Source: a virus. From it: a DNA stretch of 45,996 bases. Where the stretch lies: positions 1 to 45,996 of the IMG/VR virus record IMGVR_UViG_3300020469_000080; one strand, given 5' to 3'. The notes below the pieces were generated by a model that saw only the letters and a list, made by a program, of their open reading frames with translations, had not been told where the DNA came from and did not search any database. Position 1 is the first letter of the stretch, and each line of letters opens with the position of its first letter. Below, in pieces: positions 1-41,814 of the stretch. Made by a program: the position numbers and the translations under genes.

Positions 1-804
1 ATCACTTGCAACTATTCCCCCACCAAGCGCAGTGCCACTTACAGTTCCAGTAAATGATGCTGCACCAGTACAATTTAGGTTAGAAGTTGTTAAACTATTA
101 GCATTAACTCCTACAAAAGTTGGGCTGGATGTTGTGCTAACATCTTGACCAATAGAAATTGAATCAGAACTACCTATAGTAACACCAGTTCCTGCTATAC
201 CGTCAAAACTTATTACCGCACCGATTGTTGCAGGTGATAAATTAACACTAAGTCTACCAGTAGAAGATAAAGATAAATTACTATCAGTAGAAAATGCCGC
301 CCTTGCCCTAGAATCATTATAATAAAGTGCAGAAGGACTTTCTGAAACATCTTGCGATGCAAAGCCAACTTGTGCTGGGGCAAGTTGACCACTTAAACTT
401 TGAATACTTGGAATTCTTGTAGATGGGAATACCCCACTAGTAATTTTTGTTGTACTTAGATTTGGAATACGTGTGGATGAGAATGTTCCGCTAGTAATAA
501 CATTTGAAGGTAATGGTGCTAAATGTGTTGGACCAACAGCATTTGAATTAAATGAAAACAATCCACTAGTTGAATCATAAGTTAATTGAGTGTGATTACC
601 ATTTCCAGTAGACACAACACTTATTGCACTTGTGAACCCTGTAATATTTGACGTTGATCTGATTTCATTGATCGCACTAACTAAATTAGTTTTGTCTGTA
701 GTATTAAGATTATCAGGTTCACCAATGTACTCAGCCATAGTATTTGTGGAATTTCTCCAAATTTCTATGGTATCAGTTAAATTTACTGTAATTTTTCTGG
801 TCAT
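1..804 (-). CDS. Tail-fibre-like protein, 5' part (cut at window edge)
   Basis: The reading frame is open from an ATG at 804 to the left edge (268 codons, no stop), so the C-terminus is missing. The N-terminus (MTRKITVNLTDTIEIWRN..., then EYIGEPDNLNT) parallels that of the fibre gene at 11279-12484 (MARLQNVDLSNTVNGW..., then GYIGDLDNLNT), which makes the two paralogues. The rest is rich in Ser, Thr, Gly and Asn, with repeated ITSG(T/V)F..RIP units typical of beta-structured phage fibres. It is likely a distal tail or baseplate-attached adhesin that contacts the host. A T4-type late promoter lies 37 bp upstream. The specific receptor is unknown. Confidence 0.75.
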   Translation of the reverse strand, partial: MTRKITVNLTDTIEIWRNSTNTMAEYIGEPDNLNTTDKTNLVSAINEIRSTSNITGFTSAISVVSTGNGNHTQLTYDSTSGLFSFNSNAVGPTHLAPLPSNVITSGTFSSTRIPNLSTTKITSGVFPSTRIPSIQSLSGQLAPAQVGFASQDVSESPSALYYNDSRARAAFSTDSNLSLSSTGRLSVNLSPATIGAVISFDGIAGTGVTIGSSDSISIGQDVSTTSSPTFVGVNANSLTTSNLNCTGAASFTGTVSGTALGGGIVASD

Positions 805-839: not shown

Positions 840-1289
840 TTATTTATAAGGTTTTATGGCAAGTTTAAACTCATCCTCATAATATTTTCTAACATCTGGA
901 ATCATTCCTTTCATTTCTAGGGGAAATTTTATTTCTTTTAATATCTGATCATAAGTATCAGAGTCTAAATGATACTGGATAAAATGTGGATCATTTTCCG
1001 CTAGTAAATATTTATCATTTAATAATTCAAAGAAATCTTCATTAAAATCTTGAGATAGCCAATATGCATAACATATAGCAACAAAATATGATTTTGCTGG
1101 TCTAATAGTTTCATCAACATATTCATTGAAATGCAAAACAGCATCTCTAACTATATTTTCTTCACTCCATGTCACATCCATTTTATTCAAATCATCTGAA
1201 TACTCTCTATTAAGTAAGTGATAAACTTGGGACGCTGTTCTCCATTTTTTCATACCAATCCAATAGTCCTTTATATCCATTACACCCAT
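840..1289 (-). CDS. Unknown acidic protein, last gene of the island
   Basis: I do not recognise this 149-aa protein. It is acidic and aromatic-rich, apparently helical, with no membrane segment and a single Cys. The listed ATG (1289) is preceded by AAGGA at good spacing but makes the gene overlap the end of the radical-SAM gene at 1210-2139 by 80 bp. In-frame ATGs at 1280 and 1253 would shorten the overlap, and the latter has AAAGGA about 12 nt upstream. Its position at the operon end, coupled to a radical-SAM gene, suggests an accessory or substrate protein, but no function can be assigned. Confidence 0.55.
   Translation of the reverse strand: MGVMDIKDYWIGMKKWRTASQVYHLLNREYSDDLNKMDVTWSEENIVRDAVLHFNEYVDETIRPAKSYFVAICYAYWLSQDFNEDFFELLNDKYLLAENDPHFIQYHLDSDTYDQILKEIKFPLEMKGMIPDVRKYYEDEFKLAIKPYK
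841..848 (-). promoter_or_regulatory. T4-type late promoter (TATAAATA)
   Basis: The minus strand reads TATAAATA, the T4 late-promoter consensus, 37 bp before the fibre ATG at 804. It is built from the last codons and the stop codon of the upstream gene (Tyr-Lys-stop). Chance matches to this octamer are expected in AT-rich DNA, so the call rests on its position directly before a structural gene. Confidence 0.6.
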
Positions 1290-2139
1290 TATTTAAATCC
1301 TTGACGTATCGGTAATGTTCTGTTAAACAATTACCAAAATATTTGCATGAAGCACAAATCGGACTTATCATTTCTTTTTTTTCTTTTTCTGCCCAATCTA
1401 AATAAGATTGGAAAGAATCCAATTCGTGAAAGTATTCTCTATCGTGTACATCAAACTCCAATACTCCAAACTTGCCGTTAGGAGTAATGTAAACATGATC
1501 ATCCGAAAATGCATTGTATAATCCATTAAAAGACTCCTCTATCTTGTCTGCATTTACAAATTGAAAATCCATTTGATTTTCTAATTCCATCCACTGAATA
1601 ACAAACTTTTCAAAATCTAAATGCGTCACAGTAAATGCATTTGCTTGATTAATAGAATATGGTTTAATTTCTACTGATTTAACAGCACCACACATGTTCA
1701 ATAATTTTATCATTTCATTTACATTCATCTTTAAGACTTGCGGTGATGCAAGAATAAGAACGGCAATCGGTACTGAACTCATCATCATATTCTGAAATAC
1801 TAGATTTGATTTCTCTCTTGCTTCAAAATCATAAGATACTGATAAATAAACATCGTCATCAAAGAAACCATCGTGCATCATAGAATAGTTTGTATTGATA
1901 TTTATTTTTCCATCATAATACTTTTTAATTGTATTTTTAACATCATAAAAATAATTTTTTTTCATAGCACCAATTTCACCACCATATAGATCAACATGCT
2001 CTATATCTGGAATTTGTGAAAGTAATTCATCAAGTCTCTCAATTGAAATTTTTTTCTGGTCGCCTAATTGTTCTGAAGTAAGATAACAAAAATCACAGCG
2101 AAAATTACAAAAATAAGATGGATTTACAGATACAATCAT
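1210..2139 (-). CDS. Radical-SAM enzyme with Cys-rich (SPASM/Twitch-like) C-terminus
   Basis: The 309-aa protein carries the 4Fe-4S/SAM motif CNFRCDFC (C11, C15, C18) close to the N-terminus and a GGE-type motif (LYGGEIG) about 40 residues later. The C-terminal cluster CASCKYFGNC...GC (C262, C265, C271, C286) fits an auxiliary iron-sulfur site. Such enzymes generate a 5'-deoxyadenosyl radical and often modify peptides. The start ATG overlaps the stop of the preceding radical-SAM gene (ATGA), so the two are probably translated together. The substrate is unknown, and membership of a peptide-modifying subfamily is inferred from the C-terminal Cys pattern and the context. Confidence 0.75.
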   Translation of the reverse strand: MIVSVNPSYFCNFRCDFCYLTSEQLGDQKKISIERLDELLSQIPDIEHVDLYGGEIGAMKKNYFYDVKNTIKKYYDGKININTNYSMMHDGFFDDDVYLSVSYDFEAREKSNLVFQNMMMSSVPIAVLILASPQVLKMNVNEMIKLLNMCGAVKSVEIKPYSINQANAFTVTHLDFEKFVIQWMELENQMDFQFVNADKIEESFNGLYNAFSDDHVYITPNGKFGVLEFDVHDREYFHELDSFQSYLDWAEKEKKEMISPICASCKYFGNCLTEHYRYVKDLNNGCNGYKGLLDWYEKMENSVPSLSLT

Positions 2140-3170
2140 GCATATTCTCTTACATATTCAGTAACTTTAGTGTCCATTCTATTTAAAGAAATTATGTCTT
2201 TTGCCATAGATTTCATATGTTTACAATGATCTTCAACCATGTTATGTTGTTTCAAATCTTTAATTGTTTTACGGCATCCATTACAAATTTCAAACATAGG
2301 ACAAGTAAAACATGAATTTTTAAGACTCATTAAACTCAAATCATTACTGAGGGGTGTTTCAAAACCCCCATTCATTTCATATTCAAAATCTATTGGTTTA
2401 TCAAGATCATCACCAAAAGAGCCGCAAGAATAGTAATCACCTTCTGGTTGGATATTACGAATACCACTATCGCAGTTTCTAGATTGAGGACATATAGTTG
2501 GTTTTTTTCTTAGCCTATTTAACATTTGTTGGGTGTTATGTTCCCAATCACTAAGTCCTGCTTTCCAAATTTGAATATATCTCTCATAAATTTTTGATAA
2601 TCTATATGGTGCTGACTGAGAACCAGATGCCATAGCATAATTTACCTTACAAACAACATTCATCTTCTTAGCAAGTTGTACAGTCTGTATTACAGTATCT
2701 TCATTTTCATCCACAATTACCGCAATAAATGATGGTCTATACCCTACATGCTCAAGCATCGCATCAGAACATTTCCAAAAATCTTCTTCTGTAAATTCGC
2801 TGTAATCACCTTTAAGTCTACCCCCACCATATTGAAATGAAGTCCCAACACCAATTCTATGATGATTAAAGAGTTCTGCCCATTTTTTTGGTTTTATTAA
2901 AAAAGGATACAAATTAGTTGTAAGGGATATTGTCGCTGGCATATTATGTTTATCTAAAAACTCTATTAACTTCCAATAGTAGTTTGGCCTCATCATTAAA
3001 GGATCACCACCATTTACGATGATAGTTTGTGTTTTAGGGAATCTTTTAAGAAATTTGAATATCTTATTCAAATCAAGTACAGCAGTGTTATCTTCTTGAG
3101 TAATTTTAGAAGAAGAACAGAAAGAGCATTTAAAATTGCATAATTCTGTTGGTTTAATGATTAGGTCCAT
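2136..3170 (-). CDS. Radical-SAM/SPASM enzyme
   Basis: In this 344-aa protein, CNFKCSFC (C11, C15, C18) binds the SAM-cleaving 4Fe-4S cluster and VNGGDPLM is the GGE-like motif. The C-terminal half has a SPASM-like set: CPQSRNC, then C-G-S-F, then CFTCPMFEICNGC (C287, C290, C296, C299) and a last Cys at 316. The SPASM domain is known from enzymes that modify ribosomally made peptides and from anaerobic sulfatase-maturating enzymes. The start overlaps the end of an upstream oxygenase gene by 10 bp. It shares only the general fold with the neighbouring radical-SAM gene and is not a near-identical duplicate. Confidence 0.8.
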   Translation of the reverse strand: MDLIIKPTELCNFKCSFCSSSKITQEDNTAVLDLNKIFKFLKRFPKTQTIIVNGGDPLMMRPNYYWKLIEFLDKHNMPATISLTTNLYPFLIKPKKWAELFNHHRIGVGTSFQYGGGRLKGDYSEFTEEDFWKCSDAMLEHVGYRPSFIAVIVDENEDTVIQTVQLAKKMNVVCKVNYAMASGSQSAPYRLSKIYERYIQIWKAGLSDWEHNTQQMLNRLRKKPTICPQSRNCDSGIRNIQPEGDYYSCGSFGDDLDKPIDFEYEMNGGFETPLSNDLSLMSLKNSCFTCPMFEICNGCRKTIKDLKQHNMVEDHCKHMKSMAKDIISLNRMDTKVTEYVREYA

Positions 3171-3751
3171 GGCGAATTCTTTATATTAAAACCAAAGTTT
3201 AATGTAATTCTCTCCATGTTAGGTTTTCTAAAATTTTCAACTCTATGCTGAAACTTCAAATCTTGGCTACCTAATATAAGATCATATTTTTTAGGTAGAT
3301 GAAAACAAGTTACACGTTTGTTTTGTTCCATATTCCTAAACATAATCTCACCACCAGACCCTAACTGCATGTCAGTGAAGTATAATAAAAAGAAAACATT
3401 TGCACCTTCAATTAAATCATTATGCCAAACGTCTGAACCAGATGAAGTGCCATTCCAAAGATACGAATATATTAATTTCTTGCTCTCCACAGAGTTGTCA
3501 TACTTAGACAAATATGTTTCGTGTAGTAGACTAGCCGTTTTTTTTATTTTTCTTTTCATAAAATTCAAATGATAATTCCAAGCAATTTTGTAATTTTTAT
3601 TGTCTTTAGATTTTATCCATGGCATTTTTGGAATAGTATCTCTACTCTCTGTATTCATATTTAACCATTTTAATCTTGGGATGGTATCATCAATATGAAT
3701 AAACATATCTTTTCTATTATCCAGCAAATATCCTTGTTCATTTATTTCCAT
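3161..3751 (-). CDS. 2OG-Fe(II) oxygenase, paralogue of next upstream gene
   Basis: The 196-aa protein has an iron-binding facial triad: WHND gives H110 and D112, FQHRV gives H169, and ERITLNF gives R181, which would bind 2-oxoglutarate. The layout matches the 2OG-Fe(II) oxygenase superfamily, which hydroxylates amino-acid side chains or small molecules. It is clearly a paralogue of the 3742-4308 product: both share the MFIH(I)xDT(I/L)PxLKWL segment, GGEIM(F/Y)RNM, F(H)LPKKYD and the (N/E)SPW end. The ATG at 3751 follows AAGGA by 6 nt. The substrate is unknown; proteins of the same island are the obvious candidates. Confidence 0.78.
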   Translation of the reverse strand: MEINEQGYLLDNRKDMFIHIDDTIPRLKWLNMNTESRDTIPKMPWIKSKDNKNYKIAWNYHLNFMKRKIKKTASLLHETYLSKYDNSVESKKLIYSYLWNGTSSGSDVWHNDLIEGANVFFLLYFTDMQLGSGGEIMFRNMEQNKRVTCFHLPKKYDLILGSQDLKFQHRVENFRKPNMERITLNFGFNIKNSPWT

Positions 3752-4308
3752 GGAGATTCCTTAACTTTAAATCTAAAAAGCATTGTTATTCTTTCTTGCT
3801 TCAATTCTTTTGTATGCTCAACTCTATGTTGAAACTTTAAATCATCACCTACACTCCCCATTACTATATCGTATTTTTTAGGTAGATGAAAAGTAGTTAT
3901 TCTTTTATTTTCTTTCATATTTCTGTACATTATCTCACCACCATTATTTGGTTCTGAGTCTGTAAAATACAAATTAAATTGTAAGTTACCACCTTCAGTA
4001 TCGTGATGCCACTCACACGAACCAGTGTCTGTCCCATTCCACATAGTATAATAATCCAAGTTCTTTTCGGTTTCCCACGGTAAGTAGGTTTCCCAAAGTA
4101 GATTGGCAGTTTTTAACATCTTACTTCTCATAGAGTGAAAATAATAATTCCAAGCCACACTTTGCCACCTATCAGACTTTTTTGAATCGCTTCTCTTTAA
4201 ATATAACCATTTTAATTTTGGTAACGTATCTTTTATATGAATAAACATATTGGGATTGTTCTCAATAAAACATCCAGAACTTTTATCAAAATTTTCATCA
4301 ATATGCAT
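3742..4308 (-). CDS. 2OG-Fe(II) oxygenase, paralogue of next downstream gene
   Basis: The 188-aa product runs from an ATG at 4308 that has GGGAG 5 nt upstream, within the final codons of the preceding oxygenase gene. The GTG at 4326 gives a longer frame but lacks this support. WHHD (H101, D103), FQHRV (H161) and ERITM (R173) form the expected Fe(II) and 2-oxoglutarate sites. It is a tandem duplicate of the 3161-3751 gene that has since diverged. Retention of all catalytic residues in both copies argues for two active enzymes with different targets or sites. Confidence 0.8.
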   Translation of the reverse strand: MHIDENFDKSSGCFIENNPNMFIHIKDTLPKLKWLYLKRSDSKKSDRWQSVAWNYYFHSMRSKMLKTANLLWETYLPWETEKNLDYYTMWNGTDTGSCEWHHDTEGGNLQFNLYFTDSEPNNGGEIMYRNMKENKRITTFHLPKKYDIVMGSVGDDLKFQHRVEHTKELKQERITMLFRFKVKESPWK

Positions 4309-4309
4309 T

Positions 4310-4840
4310 TTACTCCCACCCAACACTTACAGTCATTCTTGGTTTATCTCCAAAATAAGGTCTAATACAATGCACCATAGAACTATTAAAAACTACTAAT
4401 CTACCTACTTTTGGCTTTATTCTAGTTTTATTTTTTGGATATTCAAAAATATCCAGAGAATCGTAAATATCTAACTCGCCACCTTGCCAACCATTATCAT
4501 CTATATCTATGAAAAATAAAGTAATAATTTTAGACTCTGTTCCATCATGATGTGGTTCCCAAATCATATTTTCATTATTATCTTCTTCATACTTGACAAT
4601 CTTAATTAAATGTGATATAGCAATTTTATTTATATTTGAATCTTTACATAACGCAATAGTTTTTGCCTTATTTAAATTTGGAAAATCATCCATATGATTT
4701 TTAATATTTATTGCCATATTTTTTTGCATATTAAATCTTGGCAGATCATCCATTGCCGATTTATCAAAAGAAAACTTATGTCTTATCTTGTTAAGTTCTT
4801 CTTGGCTTAAAAAATCGTCATAAATTTCTACAGAATTCAT
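4310..4840 (-). CDS. 2OG-Fe(II) oxygenase (prolyl-hydroxylase-like fold)
   Basis: The 176-aa product shows PHHDG (H97, D99) followed by GWQGGELDIYD, VGRLVVFNSSMVH (H157) and KPRMTVSVGW (R168). This is the classic P4H-type arrangement seen in many marine phage oxygenases. It is more typical of the family than the two downstream paralogues. The ATG at 4840 follows AAGGAAAGATTAA and overlaps the end of the preceding radical-SAM gene by 23 bp. The likely reaction is hydroxylation of a peptide or small substrate using oxygen and 2-oxoglutarate; the target is unknown. Confidence 0.82.
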   Translation of the reverse strand: MNSVEIYDDFLSQEELNKIRHKFSFDKSAMDDLPRFNMQKNMAINIKNHMDDFPNLNKAKTIALCKDSNINKIAISHLIKIVKYEEDNNENMIWEPHHDGTESKIITLFFIDIDDNGWQGGELDIYDSLDIFEYPKNKTRIKPKVGRLVVFNSSMVHCIRPYFGDKPRMTVSVGWE

Positions 4841-6485
4841 TTAATCTTTCCTTTATCATTTCTTCATTTTTATCTAATAATATTTTCATCTCATTAACAA
4901 TATCTTTATCCTTAAAGTGTCCAACATCAAACTTATCTATACTATGAGAATTATCATCAAGAAATATATTTCTTATCAGTTCTTTGTAAACAAAAAACAT
5001 TGGTATATCGTTCAATATATTCCACAACTCTTTTGCCACTTCACTCACGTTTTCATAAGTGGTGTATTCTTTTATAAAACTTAAACCCACATGTGGTGTG
5101 AATAAATTCATTATGAACATTTCTAAATATTCTTCAAACGTATATGAAAAACACTCAACTATAGTATCATATTCATACGCTACATCACCATATATTGGAT
5201 TTACTTCAACATCATCCCATTTTCCACTATAGTTGCCATCAAATTGTGTCAGTACCTTTGAGGTTTTTATTTTATATTTTTCTTGATATTCTTTACTAGC
5301 AGTTTCAGTTGCTGGTAAAACCATATAAGGATATCTAGTGTCTGCCCATACATCAAGACCTTTCCATTCTTCCCAATCTTTTCCTTCATTATATCCAACT
5401 CTATAGTATACTTTAAATTCCTCGTAAAAATCTTTTAATGTGGAACCTGGCATTGCTAAAATTAGTTCTAAGTCTAGCCATAATTCTTTTTCTTTAAAAT
5501 TATTCCATTTATTAGTTAAATGATCCACCAACTCATAGGTTTCCTCAACATCAAGGTCTCTCCTGTTCGCAATTTTTCTCGCTTCTGGTGATATTGATTG
5601 TAAACTAATACTAATAACTTGGCGAGTAATATCATGCTCAATCATAAAATCAAGCATTTCTTTTTTCTGTTCCAATTTTAAAGTTTTTAATACTGATAGA
5701 TTCTCACCAATTTGAACCCCATTATCCACCATGTGCATCATCATTTCTCTATCGCGTTCTTTAAACATTCCTGTATTAGCATCACACAAATCAATATGTA
5801 CACCTTTGAACCGCCCTATAAATTCCATTTCATCCTTTATCACAGCCATAGGTTTTTTTAGAACTTTTGTTCCAGTACCGCCACCCCACTCACAATAAGA
5901 ACACTTAAATGGGCATCCTCTAGTGCTTTCATATATCAATGTTATTCTCTCATATAAGTCTATATTTTTAATAAAATGCTTATATTCTTTGGTAAAATAA
6001 TCTTCACATCTCTTATATACATTCGTATGTCCAAATGGAAGAGGAATTTTTAAAGAACTACCCAAATAAAATGGAATCTTTTTCTTATCAACAGAATCCT
6101 CTAAATACATATCAAGAAAGTATTGAACGAATATTTCTCCTGGAGCAAGAGGGTCTGCAACATAGTCATAATCTTTTATTATATCAGGGTCTTGTTGAGG
6201 ACCACCCATGACTACTATGGTATCTGGGTCAAGACCATTTCGTATCCTTTGGTTAATTTTATAATTCCAAACATAATTGGTAAAAAAGACAATAGAACAC
6301 CCTTTAACATTATCCAAACAATCTTGTATTGTAACTTCATTCCATTTAAATATTGGCTCCACCCAAGTAACTTTTTCTGGATATTTACCATAATCTTCAT
6401 AAAAACATTTAAAAAGCATCCAATGATAATTAAATTCGGCCCTTGAAGGTATTCCTGTTGGATTTATATAACCTACTTTAATCAC
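4818..6485 (-). CDS. Radical-SAM enzyme, possibly with B12-binding-like N-terminus
   Basis: This 555-aa protein is the largest of the island. Its N-terminal ~125 residues (VGYINPTG..., VVMGGPQQDPD, then a PGE turn) resemble the Rossmann-like domain of cobalamin-binding radical-SAM enzymes. RGCPFKCSYCEWGG supplies the cluster Cys (C191, C195, C198). Class-B cobalamin enzymes methylate unreactive carbon or phosphorus, or rearrange carbon skeletons. I see no clear DxHxxG cobalamin-ligand motif, so actual B12 binding is uncertain. The start appears to be GTG at 6485, overlapping the upstream stop by 8 bp. The C-terminal ~180 residues are family-specific and not recognised. Confidence 0.75.
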   Translation of the reverse strand: MIKVGYINPTGIPSRAEFNYHWMLFKCFYEDYGKYPEKVTWVEPIFKWNEVTIQDCLDNVKGCSIVFFTNYVWNYKINQRIRNGLDPDTIVVMGGPQQDPDIIKDYDYVADPLAPGEIFVQYFLDMYLEDSVDKKKIPFYLGSSLKIPLPFGHTNVYKRCEDYFTKEYKHFIKNIDLYERITLIYESTRGCPFKCSYCEWGGGTGTKVLKKPMAVIKDEMEFIGRFKGVHIDLCDANTGMFKERDREMMMHMVDNGVQIGENLSVLKTLKLEQKKEMLDFMIEHDITRQVISISLQSISPEARKIANRRDLDVEETYELVDHLTNKWNNFKEKELWLDLELILAMPGSTLKDFYEEFKVYYRVGYNEGKDWEEWKGLDVWADTRYPYMVLPATETASKEYQEKYKIKTSKVLTQFDGNYSGKWDDVEVNPIYGDVAYEYDTIVECFSYTFEEYLEMFIMNLFTPHVGLSFIKEYTTYENVSEVAKELWNILNDIPMFFVYKELIRNIFLDDNSHSIDKFDVGHFKDKDIVNEMKILLDKNEEMIKERLNEFCRNL

Positions 6486-7116
6486 CTTTATAGAACTCCA
6501 TATTCATAAATTGTATCTTTGTGAACCCCTTTAAAACCTTAGATGTATATGGAGTTTCCATTATGGCACTGTCTGGATGGGTAGACATTTTTTTCATTTG
6601 AGTGTATAGTGTTTTGGCTGTAGGAACGTAAATAGGTCTGTTCTCAATTTCAGTTTTGCAAAATTTCACCATGATTTTATAAAAGTCTATTTCTTGCCTT
6701 CTGGTTAAGCAATCTCTATAAATTCCATTTATTTGAATATTTGACATTATTGTATAATTTTTAGTTTTCTCTGTACCAATCCACCCTAACTCATAATCAT
6801 TATTCACTGCTGTTTTAGGTGATCCAGTAAATTGAGTAGTATAATCTTCTATCATAGATTTACTGTTAACTTCAGATAATAAATTACTTGATAATGGAAC
6901 ACTAAAAACGTACACTTCACTACTCAAAAAATTATCTAAAAAATGAACACATGGGGGTAATTCTATATCAACTGAATAATCAAACATTGTATAGCATACA
7001 TTATACTCTATGTCAATTTCTTTAATTGGATTAGTTAATCTTTTCAATCTTGTTGGAAATCTATTTATAAAAGATTGACTTATTGGAGATTTATCACTAT
7101 TTCCATAAAAAAACAT
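6478..7116 (-). CDS. Unknown island protein (212 aa)
   Basis: Not recognised. The protein has scattered Cys and His but no HxD triad, CxxxCxxC motif or membrane segment. The ATG at 7116 lies one base after the stop of the preceding radical-SAM gene, and its end overlaps the GTG start of the large radical-SAM gene by 8 bp, so it is translated within the operon. It could be a scaffold, substrate-recognition partner or substrate of the flanking radical-SAM enzymes. A TATAAATA inside its 5' end (7062-7069) is in coding sequence and may be chance. Confidence 0.6.
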   Translation of the reverse strand: MFFYGNSDKSPISQSFINRFPTRLKRLTNPIKEIDIEYNVCYTMFDYSVDIELPPCVHFLDNFLSSEVYVFSVPLSSNLLSEVNSKSMIEDYTTQFTGSPKTAVNNDYELGWIGTEKTKNYTIMSNIQINGIYRDCLTRRQEIDFYKIMVKFCKTEIENRPIYVPTAKTLYTQMKKMSTHPDSAIMETPYTSKVLKGFTKIQFMNMEFYKGD

Positions 7117-7117
7117 C

Positions 7118-8158
7118 TCATCTTAATCCTTGATTTTCAATATATCTATGTGTCATCTTATAAACACATTCATCAAAAATTTCCTCTGCATATTTGTAAT
7201 CGTGTGCCATGAAACACCCAAGAGTACATCTATGGAAATATTCACAAGTAGAGCAATTATACTTCTCAAGAAATGCTTTCTCAATAGGTTTGTTATTAGC
7301 CTTCTGTATATCGGTTTTATACATCGCCTTATCTCTTGGCTCTTGAACAAGATTTCCACACAAACACATTGTACCATCCTCAAGAACTAATTTTGACGAT
7401 CTGCATGAAACAACATTACGCTCATTTTCTATCCAAGAACGAATAGGATCAATCTTAGGATAGTTATCTATAAAGTGTGTAAAAATATCGTAATGTTCTT
7501 TATCTGTCGGCATACTTCTTTCTGCTTGACAATCAGGCATATAGTAATCAGCATAAACCTTAACGCCCTTATGATATAATTCGTGCATAAAATCTTTAGG
7601 ATCAGTTAACCAATATTTGATATTTGATTTAGTAAGAAGGACTCCTATGCCTTCTAGATCATCCCAGAAATCATATACATTTTCTTTGAAAATCTCTAAG
7701 TTTGGTTTGTTAAATCTACCTCTAGGATCATATGAAGTTACGAGTTTTGAGTTGCAACCCATGTCTCTACACGCCTTCAATATATCACGCACATAGTCTC
7801 TTTTACTAATTACAAGGTTAGTTACCCAATTAATTCCTATACTCTCAAACTTATATTTTTTTCCTAAATCTGTTATACCTTGTGCAAGAGAAATGTAATC
7901 ATTTTTTAGTTTTTCATCAAAAATCTCGTCTGCAAATATTTCTCCACCCATGATGTTTAAAACTACATGTTTCCTCATCTCCTTTTGAAAAAACTTTTCT
8001 ATTGATTCCAACTTGTCCAATACAGTATCAATACCCACAATATTATCGTGGTCTTGCCAGCAAAATGGACAAGACAGATTGCAAAATTCAAATAAATGAA
8101 TCGTGTACTCTTGTTGTTTGTCTCTCTTATCTCTTAAAATAAAGTCTACTAAATCCAA
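7118..8158 (-). CDS. Radical-SAM/SPASM enzyme, TTG start
   Basis: The 346-aa protein has CNLSCPFC (C26, C30, C33) and an MGGEIF motif. Its C-terminal SPASM-like region has CRSS...DGTMCLCGN, CSTCEYFHRCTLGC (C302, C305, C311, C315) and a last Cys at 331. The frame begins with TTG at 8158, overlapping the upstream TGA as TGATTG and preceded by AGGAG at 8 nt. No ATG exists before the cluster motif, so a non-ATG start is forced. The spacing of the last four Cys matches that of the 9700-10719 enzyme, suggesting a related auxiliary-cluster fold. The substrate is unknown. Confidence 0.8.
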   Translation of the reverse strand: MDLVDFILRDKRDKQQEYTIHLFEFCNLSCPFCWQDHDNIVGIDTVLDKLESIEKFFQKEMRKHVVLNIMGGEIFADEIFDEKLKNDYISLAQGITDLGKKYKFESIGINWVTNLVISKRDYVRDILKACRDMGCNSKLVTSYDPRGRFNKPNLEIFKENVYDFWDDLEGIGVLLTKSNIKYWLTDPKDFMHELYHKGVKVYADYYMPDCQAERSMPTDKEHYDIFTHFIDNYPKIDPIRSWIENERNVVSCRSSKLVLEDGTMCLCGNLVQEPRDKAMYKTDIQKANNKPIEKAFLEKYNCSTCEYFHRCTLGCFMAHDYKYAEEIFDECVYKMTHRYIENQGLR

Positions 8159-8812
8159 TCAAACTTCTCCTGCACCAACTCCCCAAGTTAATAGGAAAAG
8201 TGGATTTTTTTCATAGGACCAATAATCAAATAAACCTTTTCCATTAAACATATACTCGTTAAAATATTTTGAATAATAGGTCAAGTTTTTTTCATCCAAA
8301 CCATTATAATAGTAATAGAAATCTTCATGTTTTAATAAAGATACAAAATTAATACCTTTTATATCATCAGTATCATCTTCTTCATGTGATATTACCCAAT
8401 CTTTCATCTCATCATCTTGGATAATATACATATTATAAAGTGTTAATGAGTCCAACTTTTTAATCCAAGTATCAACTACTTCTTCATTATCATCAATAAA
8501 ATCTTGATAGCAACCTAAACATTCTAAAGATAGATTTTTTCTTACCAAAAGAACCTCAATAATGAATTCTTCTAAAACTTTAATATTTAATATTTGGGGA
8601 AAATGGAGATAGATTTTTGCAAGACTTTCTAAATCATTTCCCTCAACTTTAATATCACAAGGTAACTCTAAGTTACTTAAATAGACAAGTAATTTCTCTC
8701 CTTGTAAGTCACTATTTTCATAATCAATAATAAAATTAATAGTATCATCAGAAAAATATTTCTGTAAATCATCAATACCTAAAGGTGCGGTCACTATAAC
8801 ATAATTACTCAT
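8159..8812 (-). CDS. Unknown acidic island protein (217 aa)
   Basis: The frame is open to 8866, but the ATG at 8812 (MSNYVIVTAPLG...) is the supported start. Its Shine-Dalgarno AGGAG lies in the final Arg-Arg codons and stop of the upstream gene. The protein is strongly acidic and Tyr/Asp-rich, with a single CLGC motif, and ends in the Gly-rich LLTWGVGAGEV. I do not recognise the family. It sits directly between the candidate substrate gene and a radical-SAM/SPASM gene, so a role as partner, recognition protein or second substrate is plausible but unproven. Confidence 0.65.
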   Translation of the reverse strand: MSNYVIVTAPLGIDDLQKYFSDDTINFIIDYENSDLQGEKLLVYLSNLELPCDIKVEGNDLESLAKIYLHFPQILNIKVLEEFIIEVLLVRKNLSLECLGCYQDFIDDNEEVVDTWIKKLDSLTLYNMYIIQDDEMKDWVISHEEDDTDDIKGINFVSLLKHEDFYYYYNGLDEKNLTYYSKYFNEYMFNGKGLFDYWSYEKNPLFLLTWGVGAGEV

Positions 8813-8819
8813 AATAAAA

Positions 8820-9689
8820 TCATCTCCTATTTCTTGACGAATGACAACTATTGTGACAATTCGCATGACAAACTACTTCACGATAATTAATTGGTGATGC
8901 ACTCAAAGCAACAGTTTCCCATGCTATATAAAGATTATTAAATAGTTGTTCAAAATCAGCATCATCCATAACATCTCCCTTTACAATCATAGAGTGATCA
9001 ACGTCTGCCGAATCAATTTTAAACGAATGTTTTGCTGTCAAAATACCAATATCATTATATGTTGCTGGACTTCCCACACTTGCGGGTATTTTGAGTGTCG
9101 CGGCATATTTTTGTGTTGCTTTTTTACAAGAATTTTCAACATCATCATGTGCTACCGCTGAAATAAATTTTCCTGTTGAATCTACTACAACTTGAATAGC
9201 ATTATAATCTTGTATACCTAAAGTATTGTATTTTGCAAAAAAATTGTTAGCCCAAGATTTACTATCCCATGGGCCTTGTGTTCCAATAGGAACTGTTTCA
9301 ATTCCTGAATTCACTGTCGTAACCCACTCACAAGCAAACTCTCTTTCTAAATTTGCGGCATCATTCGCAGAAGTATTTAAGGCAGCAATCTTATCATTTC
9401 CATTAGGTGAAGCACCAGTAACTGTAATATTCGCGTTAAATCTTCTAATTCTAGTATATTTGTTAACATCATCCAAAAGAATAGCAAATATGTTTGCAGC
9501 ATTAATTGGACCATCAAAAAGATCAGGGTTTGATACAATTCCATCGGTTGTTCCATTAAAAAATGAAGACATACTTTGTTTTGGTAAATTATCATCACCA
9601 TACACGATTTGATTATTAATTTTATCAGTCACAAACTGTCTGTATTTTGTAATTACAGGATTTTCTGTAATAGGGTCTGATATAGCCAT
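8820..9689 (-). CDS. Candidate modified substrate with C-terminal CHxx repeats
   Basis: The 289-aa protein starts at ATG 9689 (AGGAG 7 nt upstream). About 270 residues form a soluble, Asn/Ala/Asp-rich body resembling a phage structural or adhesin protein. The last 16 residues are three CHxx tetrads followed by RNRR (C274, C278 and C282, each followed by His). Only two other Cys are visible. Such a short tandem Cys/His tail on an otherwise ordinary protein is typical of a post-translationally modified or metal-binding segment. The gene lies 10 bp downstream of a SPASM radical-SAM gene. A RiPP-like precursor or modified virion protein is the inference; a structural zinc or metal site is the main alternative. 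Confidence 0.6.
   Translation of the reverse strand: MAISDPITENPVITKYRQFVTDKINNQIVYGDDNLPKQSMSSFFNGTTDGIVSNPDLFDGPINAANIFAILLDDVNKYTRIRRFNANITVTGASPNGNDKIAALNTSANDAANLEREFACEWVTTVNSGIETVPIGTQGPWDSKSWANNFFAKYNTLGIQDYNAIQVVVDSTGKFISAVAHDDVENSCKKATQKYAATLKIPASVGSPATYNDIGILTAKHSFKIDSADVDHSMIVKGDVMDDADFEQLFNNLYIAWETVALSASPINYREVVCHANCHNSCHSSRNRR
8823..8870 (-). repeat. Three tandem CHxx codon units plus RNRR tail
   Basis: The coding sequence for residues 274-289 of the preceding protein reads CHAN, CHNS, CHSS, RNRR. The Cys-His pairs recur every four residues. The final AGG AGA Arg codons and TGA stop also supply the ribosome-binding site for the gene at 8812. Confidence 0.8.
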
Positions 9690-9699
9690 TCTTTATCTC

Positions 9700-10719
9700 C
9701 TAGACATTCTTTGCCAACTCCATCATTAAACTTTTAGGTGCGCCACATACGTCACCTTCCCATCCTAATTGATGACAATCACCCCCACAATATTTTGCGA
9801 CAGGACATGAAAGGCAATTAGGGTTTCTTATCTTTTCTTCAATAATAGTTCGTATTCTTCTAGGACTATTTATAAGAGTTTTAATAGAATCATCCAAAGT
9901 TCCGAATTGAAATTCTGGTGCTGAATTTGGACAACCACTTATTGTACCATCTCCATTTATTGTAAATAATTTTGTTTCACAATCTCTACAAAAAGTCCCA
10001 CACGTAGTAAGAGTTTTCTCAAACTTAGCATACACATTTTCAAGAAAGTCATTTTCAAACCAATCTCGCGCCCCATATTTTTCACTTTGTTGATGCATTT
10101 TCAAAAAATAGGCATCTAATTCTTTATTAGATGGAAATATCTCTGATGCTTCTCTAGCATTACCATTATTAGTTAATCTCTCTAAGGATACTTCTTGAAC
10201 CCCTAATCTTCTACACCACCTTAATAAAGTTATGGGGTCTTTTTCTAAAGTATCTTTAGTAAGACTAATAAACAAACGTATAGTTACACCATCTGCTAAA
10301 AGAGACTTGACGTTTTTATGCCATAAGTTATATTGTCTTTGATTATCAAATCTTATTTTTCTGTCCCATGAAGTTCCCAATCTATTTCTAAGTGGACCTT
10401 TTATAAATTCTCTATGTTGATCTTTTAATTTATACACTAAATTGGTTGTCGCGCCCCAACTCATATTATCCCAAAGTCCATCACAAGCATCATAAACTTT
10501 TCGCATTTGCCCTACAGGTACAAGAAATGGTTCGCCGCCATGAAACTCTAAATGAATACCATCATCCTTCGCAGGTTTTTCTTCACGAAATCTATGTATC
10601 CAATCAACTATCTTATCAGTATTCCAATAAATTTTAGCACCGTTGCTACCAGAGGTAAAACAGTGCTTACAGTTTAATTGACAAGTTTCTGTGGTTTTAA
10701 GATATACTGACCAAAACAC
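9700..10719 (-). CDS. Radical-SAM/SPASM enzyme, sulfatase-maturase-like
   Basis: The 339-aa protein has CQLNCKHCF (C13, C17, C20) and FHGGEPFL, which resembles the WHGGEPLL of anaerobic sulfatase-maturating enzymes. It also has a full SPASM domain: CGTFCRDC, INGDGTISGC, then C302, C305, C311, C315 and C325. SPASM enzymes hold two auxiliary 4Fe-4S clusters and act on peptide Cys, Ser or other residues. The apparent start is GTG at 10719, overlapping the cupin gene by 23 bp. The next gene, 10 bp on, encodes the CHxx-tailed protein, its most likely substrate. Formylglycine formation is one option; thioether cross-linking is another. Confidence 0.82.
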   Translation of the reverse strand: MFWSVYLKTTETCQLNCKHCFTSGSNGAKIYWNTDKIVDWIHRFREEKPAKDDGIHLEFHGGEPFLVPVGQMRKVYDACDGLWDNMSWGATTNLVYKLKDQHREFIKGPLRNRLGTSWDRKIRFDNQRQYNLWHKNVKSLLADGVTIRLFISLTKDTLEKDPITLLRWCRRLGVQEVSLERLTNNGNAREASEIFPSNKELDAYFLKMHQQSEKYGARDWFENDFLENVYAKFEKTLTTCGTFCRDCETKLFTINGDGTISGCPNSAPEFQFGTLDDSIKTLINSPRRIRTIIEEKIRNPNCLSCPVAKYCGGDCHQLGWEGDVCGAPKSLMMELAKNV

Positions 10720-11215
10720 TATTCATTTTATCCTCTATAAATTTTTCTAAGCCAAAACTCAAAGTAAGTGCTTCATGTTCATTAAATGCTTGGTGAGGGG
10801 TATTCGCAGGAATATGTAGTGTTGCACCTTCCTTCAAAGTAAATACTGGTTCACCACCCATAGTATGCCCTTCCATTGCTATCGTTTTCATTCCTTCACA
10901 ACAATATATAACGACATTATCTGGATCAGTATGTTTTTTGAATGAATGAGCATTTTTTTCAGCATAAAATAAATGACATGTTATTGGGCCATTATGATCA
11001 TACATATCTTCTAGTTCTAAACAATAAGAAAAAATCTCTGAGTTATATGCTTCCATTCTTTCAATTTTTATTGAATTTTTATTTTTATTTGCAAGCGTAT
11101 CCGCAAAATTTTTCATTAGATGTTCTCTACCATTTTCATCTATTGCATAAACCATATTTTGTTCATACGCGAGGTCACTCGCAATTATTTTTAAGAATTG
11201 ACTCTTAGTAAGCAT
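10697..11215 (-). CDS. Cupin/JmjC-like putative Fe(II) oxygenase, first gene of the island
   Basis: The 172-aa protein has a cupin-type core: KKHTDPDNVVIY gives H95 and D97, and IPANTPHQAF gives H141. This HxD...H spacing fits an Fe(II)/2-oxoglutarate oxygenase of the cupin or JmjC class, and the terminal SFGLEKF strand is also typical. A plain metal-binding cupin without oxygenase activity cannot be excluded. ATG 11215 follows AAAGGA and lies about 20 nt after the predicted transcription start of a sigma70 promoter, making it the leader gene of the island. Confidence 0.65.
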   Translation of the reverse strand: MLTKSQFLKIIASDLAYEQNMVYAIDENGREHLMKNFADTLANKNKNSIKIERMEAYNSEIFSYCLELEDMYDHNGPITCHLFYAEKNAHSFKKHTDPDNVVIYCCEGMKTIAMEGHTMGGEPVFTLKEGATLHIPANTPHQAFNEHEALTLSFGLEKFIEDKMNSVLVSIS

Positions 11216-11241
11216 AACAAAATCCTTTAATGAGTGAGACT

Positions 11242-11270
11242 ATTATAGACTATATAACCTAAAATGTCAA
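11242..11270 (-). promoter_or_regulatory. sigma70-type promoter of the island
   Basis: On the minus strand TTGACA (11270-11265) and TATAAT (11247-11242) are separated by exactly 17 bp, a perfect consensus for host housekeeping RNA polymerase. It points into the cupin gene at 11215. It is the same type of promoter as those before gp32 and the 39073 gene, and unlike the TATAAATA late promoters of the structural genes. Confidence 0.85.
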
Positions 11271-11278
11271 TATGTAAT

Positions 11279-12484
11279 TTAAAGTTTAAGTACACACTCA
11301 ATCATTTTTTCACCTTCAAAATCATTACTTTCAAGAGCAATACCTACTAATTCTGCACCATTAAACTCTGAACTAGCAACACCATCACGCCAAGTATATA
11401 CTGCCTCACCTTTTCTAATTTGACCATTTACTCTTACGGGAACCCTACCTTTAAGAGCAAGTGCTTGTCCCTCTGCTTCTGCATTCATAAGAAATGCTGG
11501 TTCTGCTGAAACAACTCCAATTGGAATACCAGAATTCGTACATCTTGTAGTTTCACCATTTGGGCCAAAATTTACCATCATAACAGTTCCTATTGGATAA
11601 TCTTCATCTGTGGTATATTTCTCCGCAAGGTCAGCAAAATTAGCAGATGTAGCATTACCATGAAATGTTGTAGCATGTACACTAGTATATTTGAAACCAC
11701 TACTACCGATTTGATATGTATCAGTAATTTTTGGAATAATATTACCACTATGATCTATTTGACCATAAAAAGTAGAGTTAACTGGTGTTTCACCATCACC
11801 ACCAACAGTAAATGTATTCTTGAAAGTACTAGTTCCATTGTATAATCTAGTTCCAGTATATACTGTGGATTCATTATTTCTGACAAGAGTGGGGTCCATC
11901 GCATTGAGAGGTAATTTAGTACCATCAAATGTTACTTTACTTGAAGGAATAGTTGGAATTCTTGCTTGATCAAGTACTCCTGATGTTATTTTACTTGCAG
12001 GAATATCTGGGATACGAGCAATGTTAAATACCCCTGAAGTTATTTGATTTGCTGATAAGTAAGGCAATCTAGCAGTTGATATTGTTCCAGTTGTTATATT
12101 TCCAGCATCCATTTGTGTTATCACTGATGATGGCAATTGACCAGTTGTAATTTTACCAGCATCTAAATTGGGAATATCATTTGCAGTAAGTGGATTACAT
12201 ATAAAAGTAAAAATCCCCCCACCAATACCTGCTGAGTCAGCATAAGATAAACTTGAGTAAGTACCTGCACCACCAGTTGATACTTCCAATGCAGTTCTTG
12301 CCAATGCTTGCACTTCACCATTAACAGCAAATTTACTTTGAATTGAATTTATTGCTCCTACAATACTTCCACTATCAGATGTATTCAGATTATCTAAGTC
12401 GCCAATATATCCCGCAGTAATATTTGTTTTTTCTCTCCAACCATTTACGGTATTGCTAAGATCAACATTTTGTAATCGTGCCAT
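11279..12484 (-). CDS. Tail-fibre protein
   Basis: The 401-aa protein has an N-terminal attachment segment shared with the fibre at 1-804. Repeats of the form DAGKITTGQLP and ASKITSGVLDQARIP (roughly residues 105-185) follow and would form a trimeric beta shaft. The C-terminal domain contains FADLAEKYTTDEDYPIGTVM and GRVPVRVNGQIRKGE, a module common at the ends of marine T4-like fibres. It is virion-exposed and probably involved in host contact. ATG 12484 overlaps the stop of the small upstream gene as TAATG, so it is part of the late structural operon. Confidence 0.85.
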   Translation of the reverse strand: MARLQNVDLSNTVNGWREKTNITAGYIGDLDNLNTSDSGSIVGAINSIQSKFAVNGEVQALARTALEVSTGGAGTYSSLSYADSAGIGGGIFTFICNPLTANDIPNLDAGKITTGQLPSSVITQMDAGNITTGTISTARLPYLSANQITSGVFNIARIPDIPASKITSGVLDQARIPTIPSSKVTFDGTKLPLNAMDPTLVRNNESTVYTGTRLYNGTSTFKNTFTVGGDGETPVNSTFYGQIDHSGNIIPKITDTYQIGSSGFKYTSVHATTFHGNATSANFADLAEKYTTDEDYPIGTVMMVNFGPNGETTRCTNSGIPIGVVSAEPAFLMNAEAEGQALALKGRVPVRVNGQIRKGEAVYTWRDGVASSEFNGAELVGIALESNDFEGEKMIECVLKL

Positions 12485-40459: not shown

Positions 40460-40518
40460 CCTTTCAAGACTGATTCTCTTTACTCTTATAAACTAGCATA
40501 AGATATAAATATTGTCAA
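40460..40518 (-). promoter_or_regulatory. Promoter-leader cassette B
   Basis: TTGACA (40518-40513) includes the guaC stop codon TGA. After a 17-bp spacer comes a poor -10 (TAGTTT, 40495-40490), then the conserved ATAAGAGTAAAGAGAATCA leader and CTTGAAAGGG. The leader is almost identical to cassette C. Confidence 0.65.
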
Positions 40519-41531
40519 GAGCCATAAACAGTATTATGTGTATTATTTACTCTCACAAATGTAGCACATTTTGATAAATCTTTTAATCTGCTTGCGCCAA
40601 CATAAGTACACGCTGATCTGATGCCAGATAAAATATCAATTAGTGTTAACTCCACTGGTCCTTTATGGTCTACTGTGACGGTTTTACCTTCAACACCTCT
40701 ATATTCTCTATGACCAACTTTATGTCTATCCATAGCAGAGCCTGATGCCATACCATAAAATTTCATTTTACCATTGTCTATAATACCATCACATTCATCA
40801 TGCCCAGCAAGAATACCCCCAATCATTACAAAATCTGCGCCAGCGGCAAATGCTTTCACCATATCACCAGAAGTAGTACATCCACCATCCGCAATAATAT
40901 GGGCATCCATACCGTGAGCCGCATCAGCACATTCAATAACAGCACTCAATTGAGGCATACCAATACCAGTTTTAATTCTTGTTGTACAAACTGAACCAGG
41001 ACCAACACCAACTTTTACAATATCTGCACCAGCAAGAATTAGTTCTTGTGTCATATCAGCAGTGACAACATTACCCGCAATAATTGTAGCGTCTGGTTCT
41101 AAATCACGCATTTTCTTTACGGCATCTACAAAACTAATTGTGTAGCCATTGGCTACATCTAAACCAATAAAAAATGCTTCACTTGATTGGTATATTTTTT
41201 GAGTGTTTTGAATGTCAGTATCAGATATTCCACCCATAACGCATAAATGATCTGCCTTATGATGATTTCTAGTGGGCCATACACCTTCTGCATTATAATG
41301 TTTGGCGAGGCAAGTTATCATATTATAATTGGTCAGCACATCTGCCATGGAAAATGTTCCTACGGTATCCATGTTTGATGCCATAATTGGAGTTCCCATC
41401 CAAGTTTTTTTACTATGTTTAAATTTGTATTTTCTCTCTAAATCAACATCATACCTTGAAGTTAGTGTTGATCTTTTTGGCCTAATAAGAACATCAGAAT
41501 AATCAAGTTTCACATCATCATTAATTAGCAT
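40515..41531 (-). CDS. guaC: GMP reductase
   Basis: The 338-aa protein matches bacterial GuaC nearly end to end: [53 protein letters not shown], then [20 protein letters not shown] with the catalytic Cys, [20 protein letters not shown], and the end [19 protein letters not shown]. It reduces GMP to IMP with NADPH. ATG 41531 follows AAGGAAAAAATA; an ORF extension to 41567 is less likely. The enzyme would feed guanine nucleotides from host DNA or RNA back to the adenine branch, useful for an AT-rich phage genome. The order with the ligase-like small gene suggests co-transcription. Confidence 0.93.
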
Positions 41532-41814
41532 TATTTTTTCCTTTTTGCAATTCGTGTAAAGAGTCAATTACGATTGTTGGATATTCACCAAGATAACTTC
41601 CTGCTTCAAGAACATCTCTATCTAGTAAATGTTTATGGTAATGCTCTAACTTATTCCATTCTTTTAAAATGTTTTTAGCCAAAGTATCAAAATAACTATC
41701 CGAAAAAATAGGATTAGATTCTTCATAATAAGCATATGATGCCATAAGATAATATGGTATCATCATATTAGGATTGTTCTTAATAATTTTATTAGCATGT
41801 TTCGCCAAGTTCAT
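41521..41814 (-). CDS. Small protein resembling NAD-ligase Ia segment (97 aa)
   Basis: The middle reads YLMASYAYYEESNPIFSDSY then FDTLAKNILKEW, like the YY..DxPxxSDxxYDxLxxEL segment of subdomain Ia in NAD-dependent DNA ligases. No adenylation domain follows, so it cannot be a ligase itself. It may be a stand-alone NMN-binding-like domain or only similar by chance. It overlaps guaC by 11 bp and its own upstream neighbour by 4 bp (ATGA). Confidence 0.5.
   Translation of the reverse strand: MNLAKHANKIIKNNPNMMIPYYLMASYAYYEESNPIFSDSYFDTLAKNILKEWNKLEHYHKHLLDRDVLEAGSYLGEYPTIVIDSLHELQKGKNNAN

Follow-up and report, generated by a model that had tools for sequence, protein, structure and literature searches.

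A 45,996-nt stretch of viral DNA (IMG/VR record IMGVR_UViG_3300020469_000080; hereafter the window, to whose full length all coordinates refer) carries an operon of iron-dependent enzymes together with a protein, TAIL, that ends in an invariant 16-residue sequence. The window belongs to a T4-like myophage, with homologues of gp5, gp6, gp8, gp32, and baseplate proteins. Thirteen genes occupy the minus strand from 840 to 11215, overlapping by 4-80 nt or abutting, with intra-operon gaps of at most 10 nt. They encode five radical S-adenosylmethionine (rSAM) enzymes, three 2-oxoglutarate (2OG)-type oxygenases, one cupin, and four non-enzyme proteins (starting at 840, 6478, 8159, and 8820). The first-pass annotation had described this arrangement as overlapping genes on one strand, including four non-enzyme proteins, in an island between two fibre genes. 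All of its open reading frames (ORFs) and both fibre assignments were recovered. An Rfam search of the operon region returned no match. In order of transcription, the genes are as follows.

11279..12484, minus strand: F11279, upstream fibre gene; PHROG tail-fibre families, weak G2/S74-like C-terminal region
10697..11215, minus strand: C10697, JmjC_2/cupin Fe(II) oxygenase-like protein; JmjC_2 27.4 bits (cut-off 22), Cupin_2 28.2 (cut-off 27.2), HTD motif
9700..10719, minus strand: R9700, SPASM rSAM; SPASM 34.8 bits (cut-off 27), second CxxxCxxC at residue 240
8820..9689, minus strand: TAIL, 289 aa, probable substrate; variable N-terminal part and invariant C-terminal tail
8823..8870, minus strand: coding sequence for the 16-residue tail CHANCHNSCHSSRNRR, immediately followed by the TAIL stop codon
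8159..8812, minus strand: X8159, conserved partner; PHROG 20767, adjoins TAIL in nearly all loci
7118..8158, minus strand: R7118, rSAM with SPASM-like cysteines
6478..7116, minus strand: X6478, accessory protein, mostly in close relatives
4818..6485, minus strand: B4818, B12-dependent rSAM methyltransferase by its TokK, CysS, and KedN5 matches; optional module
4310..4840, minus strand: O4310, 2OG-Fe(II) oxygenase; Pfam 2OG-FeII_Oxy_3 33.1 bits (cut-off 27)
3742..4326, minus strand: O3742, divergent 2OG-Fe(II) oxygenase; Pfam E 8e-4, below cut-off, HHD motif
3161..3751, minus strand: O3161, 2OG-type oxygenase, divergent O3742 paralogue by its HND motif and likeness to O3742
2136..3170, minus strand: R2136, rSAM with C-terminal SPASM-like cysteines
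1210..2139, minus strand: R1210, rSAM
840..1289, minus strand: A840, small conserved partner at the distal operon end; PHROG 20737 (1.5e-31)
1..804, minus strand: downstream fibre gene, cut by the window end; weak match to one PHROG tail-fibre family

TAIL ends in VCHANCHNSCHSSRNRR, followed directly by the stop codon. Its tail conforms to the pattern CHxxCHxxCHxxRxRR, in which Cys-His dyads recur every four residues before a fixed [S/N/A]RxRR end. Scanning IMG/VR with this degenerate pattern recovered at least 119 stretches (pattern counts being lower bounds), and the tail was the exact C-terminus of the ORFs read. Outside the tail the protein is poorly conserved, with a mean major-residue frequency of 0.26 compared with 0.86 in the tail, the latter value being helped by the pattern search. 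Because little beyond the 16 residues is conserved, a tblastn search with TAIL gave no match among phage records; PHROG 35144 covers only its C-terminal 74 residues, and no Pfam or NCBIfam model matched. The TAIL structure model was partly confident and retrieved only unnamed phage proteins from BFVD at useful scores. Three Myoviridae sp. ctijX18 proteins in that database (504, 506, and 660 aa) partly resemble the TAIL fold and perhaps mark a multi-TAIL phage.

The gene itself varies in form. About 20 IMG/VR loci carry two tandem TAIL genes. In a second subtype (L006, L029, L037, L038, L047, L057, L062, L066, L069, L071, L076, and others), tandem TAILs of ~125-140 aa directly follow the fibre gene and the accessory genes are different. 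A TAIL with four CH repeats (CHSNCHSNCHSNCHTNRSRR; L036:8105-8878) is encoded on a 231-kb phage contig that has several additional rSAM genes. In one phage lineage TAIL is split (L013:4201-5569, L095:2261-3629, and L212:8318-9686): the N-terminal domain is fused to Gly_rich_2 (E 2e-10; 308 aa) and is followed by a 140-aa tail-bearing protein. Phage fibre adhesins are known to carry glycine-rich domains, and the fusion is a further pointer to a fibre location of TAIL.

To examine linkage independently of the motif, IMG/VR was searched with the X8159 family, yielding 80 loci, 79 of which had a complete upstream ORF. The tail was present in that directly upstream ORF in 79 of 79, and none of the residues C,H,C,H,C,H,R,R,R varied; as the X8159 profile was built from tail-bearing loci, linkage is demonstrated for that family and not necessarily for every remote relative. 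A second motif-free search, this time with R2136, yielded 39 long loci; TAIL lies within 37 of them and just outside the stretch in one. Among phage records, R2136 and R9700 each found the same seven (Atu_ph07 twice, Phosso, FLC6, FLC8, SURPRISE13, and SNUABM_DT01). In all seven, CHxxCHxxCHxxRxRR closes the protein that follows the cupin and the SPASM rSAM.

Operon anatomy was compared across 52 non-redundant complete phage operons, defined by the presence of R9700, TAIL, and A840. X8159, R7118, R2136, and R1210 each occur in all 52 and the cupin in 51, whereas the B12-rSAM occurs in 25. Operons contain four to six rSAM and one to four 2OG enzymes. Nine enzymes, called a very high number in the first-pass annotation, are thus normal for this operon type. 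Constant core genes alongside varying B12-rSAM and 2OG counts thus suggest, at the level of gene content, a fixed substrate and core enzyme set with variable decorating enzymes. The annotation had also held that its reading would suffer if the cluster were not conserved as a unit; it is conserved in these 52 phage operons and, as described below, in bacterial chromosomes.

X8159 probably starts at 8812, behind AGGAG, rather than at 8866, from which the ORF can also be read. It was modelled with a pLDDT of 90, no NCBIfam model fits it, and it is a possible substrate-binding or recognition protein. A conserved protein of ~370 aa without a Pfam family lies between X8159 and R7118 in most relatives (L203:10671-11786 and equivalents; 49 of 52 operons by length). 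The window, in which X8159 and R7118 are directly adjacent, apparently lacks it. In Burkholderia jumbo phages, the operon also includes two dihydrofolate-reductase-like genes (L001:8855-10032 and L005:8816-10029).

Enzyme classes were assigned by motif and profile. The CxxxCxxC motifs reported for five proteins are all present (R1210, R2136, B4818, R7118, and R9700), and each protein matches Pfam Radical_SAM (E 2e-10 to 2e-3), three of the five passing the gathering score. In radical-SAM family databases, R9700 scored above the SPASM cut-off and B4818 fell with the B12 type. The HxD motifs reported for the three 2OG proteins (HND, HHD, and HHD) and for the cupin likewise lie where they are expected; profile support is firm for O4310 and the cupin and weak for O3742, the assignment of O3161 being based on its motif. 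C10697 homologues in Bdellovibrionota score better against JmjC_2 (1e-12 to 3e-14, up to 52.9 bits). Some JmjC_2 enzymes hydroxylate His or Arg in proteins, and the His- and Arg-rich tail would suit C10697 as a candidate His/Arg hydroxylase.

Judged by its alignment to TokK in the PDB (5e-15, residues 40-356), B4818 is of the B12-dependent rSAM type, with a putative B12-binding N-terminal region and an rSAM domain. It also matched CysS, another PDB entry (2e-13), and the KedN5 model (9e-24), and it alone among the rSAMs resembles small-molecule methylases (TokK/KedN5). B12-rSAMs methylate unactivated carbons. For the SPASM rSAMs, the nearest curated models were PapB, TIGR04083, DynA, CXXX-repeat, and HxsB; apart from the general SPASM domain, no NCBIfam model fits the rSAMs at its cut-off. 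The first-pass annotation had named placement in small-molecule or nucleotide pathways as evidence against protein modification. The best curated relatives of the SPASM rSAMs are instead peptide or protein maturases, in keeping with its proposal. Assignment as prokaryotic viperin, a defence enzyme, was rejected: scores were 24-27 bits against a curated cut-off of 180, and the PADLOC matches (E 1e-6 to 8e-8) covered mostly the rSAM core.

Several observations point indirectly to a place for TAIL in the virion. Its homologue in the jumbo phage Atu_ph07 is gene 170, and the enzyme genes are 165-169. Virion mass spectrometry of Atu_ph07 places virion proteins in three clusters, genes 31-76, 170-215, and 284-329 (PMC6102473). 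The gene numbering agrees with that study at the tail sheath (140) and lysozyme (141). The cluster 170-215 begins exactly at TAIL and leaves the enzyme genes outside. The evidence that TAIL is a virion protein in Atu_ph07 is strong but indirect. Fibre genes also accompany the operon: in 65 of 71 loci the cupin is preceded, at a distance of no more than 400 nt, by the end of a gene from the F11279 fibre family, and close relatives have a member of this family at the position of gene 1-804. The match of F11279 to Peptidase_G2 (E 0.02) is below the Pfam cut-off. Elsewhere in the window, positions 40515-41567 encode an IMP dehydrogenase/GMP reductase homologue (Pfam IMPDH, 2e-68).

The cassette is not confined to phages. 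Scanning 257 Gb of genome contigs for the tail gave 19 matches. Three were apparently chance matches in the wrong kind of ORF (L129, L130, and L136, the first two also without X8159), and most others lay on phage-like contigs in metagenome-assembled genomes or in Bdellovibrionota assemblies. A profile search then found X8159 in 15 of 291 Bdellovibrionota genomes, 8 of which were known beforehand through the motif. In two control phyla, 0 of 399 and 1 of 396 genomes had X8159, the single case being a metagenome-assembled genome with a phage-like contig. The seven motif-free Bdellovibrionota loci encode variant tails in a nearby ORF: CHSSHSSHSSHSSRGRR, CHSNHCSHSNHGSRGRR, CHGNFPPPCHGSRGRR (three loci), CHTNVPTPPPCHASRGRR, and CHSNCYTPPPKSRSRR. 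These keep the initial CH and the final SRxRR and differ in the middle, a pattern that would suit a core undergoing modification next to a constant recognition end.

One Bdellovibrionota locus lies within a 4.15-Mb contig, and others adjoin rpsT, 3-hydroxyacyl-CoA dehydrogenase, or FeoB genes; they look like bacterial chromosomes, not phage contigs. In the X8159 tree the Bdellovibrionota rows are scattered among phages, with at least two changes forced and five on the tree, in which long branches are present. A Peptidase_S74 protein usually sits beside the bacterial cassette, mostly with a pilin-type N-terminus. Peptidase_S74 is an intramolecular chaperone of phage fibres, and these proteins point the same way as the upstream fibre genes in phages. 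TAIL itself most likely belongs to the fibre or baseplate region of the virion, where it is probably an adhesin or tip. In L234, L235, L255, L256, L257, L258, and L260, the S74 protein (345-397 aa) forms a module with two smaller proteins, one of ~100-130 aa with a Tat- or signal-like start in most, the other of ~190 aa.

Taken together, our data suggest that the island is probably an operon dedicated to post-translational tailoring and that its substrate is the tail of TAIL, which is itself probably a protein or adhesin of the virion's fibre region. The first-pass annotation had proposed a modification pathway, perhaps acting on a virion adhesin. That reading is supported, and the tail as probable substrate is our addition to it.

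A number of points weigh against this interpretation. Modification of the tail by the operon enzymes is something we infer, and unmodified Cys-His repeats could also act as metal ligands. TAIL is missing from one 36-kb phage fragment that encodes R2136. Across the 52 operons, enzyme content showed no clear covariation with tail residues; RSRR ends occurred in 0 of 25 operons with the B12-rSAM and 8 of 27 without it, a suggestive difference that is confounded by kinship and was not used. Fold searches with TAIL and X8159 gave no PDB match, leaving their roles as guesses. No RRE/PqqD-like recognition domain was matched by Pfam or NCBIfam in the window proteins, and neither a leader peptidase nor an exporter was seen among the Pfam-scanned window genes or the accessory genes of relatives. 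Finally, the virion assignment in Atu_ph07 depends on a cluster boundary given in the text.

Other explanations account for parts of these data. The CH-repeat tail could serve as a metal or Fe-S donor or scaffold for iron enzymes that act on another molecule. Cys-His dyads are good metal ligands, and rSAM-rich marine phages also carry Fe-S assembly genes (PMC5332604). This role nevertheless seems unlikely: Bdellovibrionota variants replace most Cys by His or Pro (CHSSHSSHSSHSSRGRR, CHGNFPPPCHGSRGRR, and CHTNVPTPPPCHASRGRR), which better fits a changing core, the invariant RxRR end is no ligand, and TAIL is apparently a virion gene in Atu_ph07. Alternatively, the fibre genes flanking the operon could suggest that the enzymes modify one of these large fibres (11279 or 1-804) or a molecule of the host surface, with TAIL as a targeting or bridging factor. 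We regard this as quite unlikely, as the fibres are variable and lack a recognised conserved motif while the TAIL motif is invariant, and as both the two-TAIL subtype and Bdellovibrionota retain TAIL alongside different fibres.

The mix of rSAM, B12-rSAM, and 2OG enzymes also resembles clusters for ribosomally synthesized and post-translationally modified peptides (RiPPs), which raises the possibility that TAIL is a precursor whose modified tail is cleaved off as a secreted bacteriocin or signal. The phage operons contain no recognised peptidase, exporter, or immunity gene, a folded leader of 110-270 residues would precede a mature part of only ~16, and TAIL is probably associated with the virion in Atu_ph07, all of which make a cleaved peptide very unlikely. 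Least probable of all is an auxiliary metabolic role in a host small-molecule or cofactor pathway. Although the B12-rSAM resembles TokK/KedN5 and rSAM-rich marine phages have been interpreted as metabolic-gene carriers (PMC5332604), strict linkage to TAIL and fibre genes and the absence of any pathway-defining enzyme argue otherwise.

Tailoring of the TAIL tail has partial counterparts among known systems. RiPP clusters of the polytheonamide type (proteusins) combine rSAM, B12-rSAM, and Fe/2OG enzymes. The operon shares with them this mix of SPASM rSAM, B12-rSAM, and Fe(II) oxygenase, as well as a substrate with a large folded N-terminal part and a C-terminal core, and, as in RiPP systems generally, the precursor gene adjoins its tailoring enzymes and has a conserved core. 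Unlike proteusin clusters, its substrate looks like a virion protein, it lies among tail genes, and its four distinct core rSAMs always occur together. Short-period Cys/His repeats near rSAM maturases are likewise found in the CXXX-repeat (TIGR04115) and His-Xaa-Ser (TIGR03977/TIGR03978) systems. Cys falls at every fourth residue of CHxxCHxxCHxx, and the Bdellovibrionota tail CHSSHSSHSSHSSRGRR adds to the likeness. However, R9700 scored 37 bits against a curated cut-off of 350 for CXXX-repeat and 33.1 against 370 for His-Xaa-Ser (HxsB/HxsC), and R2136 31.9 against 267.9 for the latter.

R9700 is similar over nearly its full length to PapB (NF047865; 4.5e-11), also a SPASM rSAM, but at 42.6 bits against a cut-off of 340, and the tail has no Asp/Glu acceptors. 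PapB is a ranthipeptide maturase that forms Cys thioethers (PMC9413430). The bacterial cassette recalls the Bdellovibrio MAT adhesins, surface fibres of predatory bacteria with a Peptidase_S74 chaperone (PMC10769870), given the S74 gene beside it. MAT proteins are ~1,000 aa long and start with a signal peptide; the cassette neighbour is shorter (345-397 aa), its N-terminus is of the pilin type, and MATs are not reported to undergo rSAM tailoring. These or similar phage genes have been listed without a common function in FLC6 (PMC8066314), phage S13 (PMC11898562), and RP12/RP31 (PMC5468394), and likewise in a marine T4-like genome with twelve rSAM genes, where they were read in connection with Fe-S metabolism (PMC5332604). 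Neither a description of the system nor the tail strings were found in the open-access literature searched, including work on jumbo phages or Bdellovibrio and radical SAM. On our reading, the system is probably a form of rSAM-based peptide tailoring whose substrate and setting are of a new kind.

In the proposed mechanism, the RxRR end, the folded N-terminal part of TAIL, or both would act as recognition elements, and X8159 and A840 may help to present the tail. The SPASM rSAM enzymes would cross-link or otherwise rebuild Cys, His, or Ser, while the JmjC_2 cupin and 2OG enzymes would hydroxylate His, Arg, or other side chains. Where present, the B12-rSAM would add C-methyl groups. Once matured, the tail could provide receptor contact, metal binding, or rigidity at the fibre end. 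The sequences themselves establish the conserved operon, the invariant tail, the enzyme classes, and the presence of the cassette in phages and Bdellovibrionota chromosomes, and they support a virion and fibre location indirectly; both the bonds made and a function in attachment are inferred. More tentatively, and with somewhat less than even confidence, we suggest that phages and predatory bacteria share an unrecognised class of adhesion proteins, in which a Cys/His tail modified by multiple rSAM, 2OG, and B12 enzymes contacts the target cell.

Virions are usually thought to consist largely of unmodified proteins, apart from cleavage and glycosylation. If our interpretation is correct, the use of four or more rSAM enzymes together with oxygenases on a single virion protein would add a new layer to phage biology and offer abundant new peptide chemistry centred on a short, fixed recognition sequence. 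It would also provide a concrete function for the rSAM arrays of marine and jumbo phages that are annotated as metabolic or without function, and would connect phage attachment with bacterial predation in a testable way.

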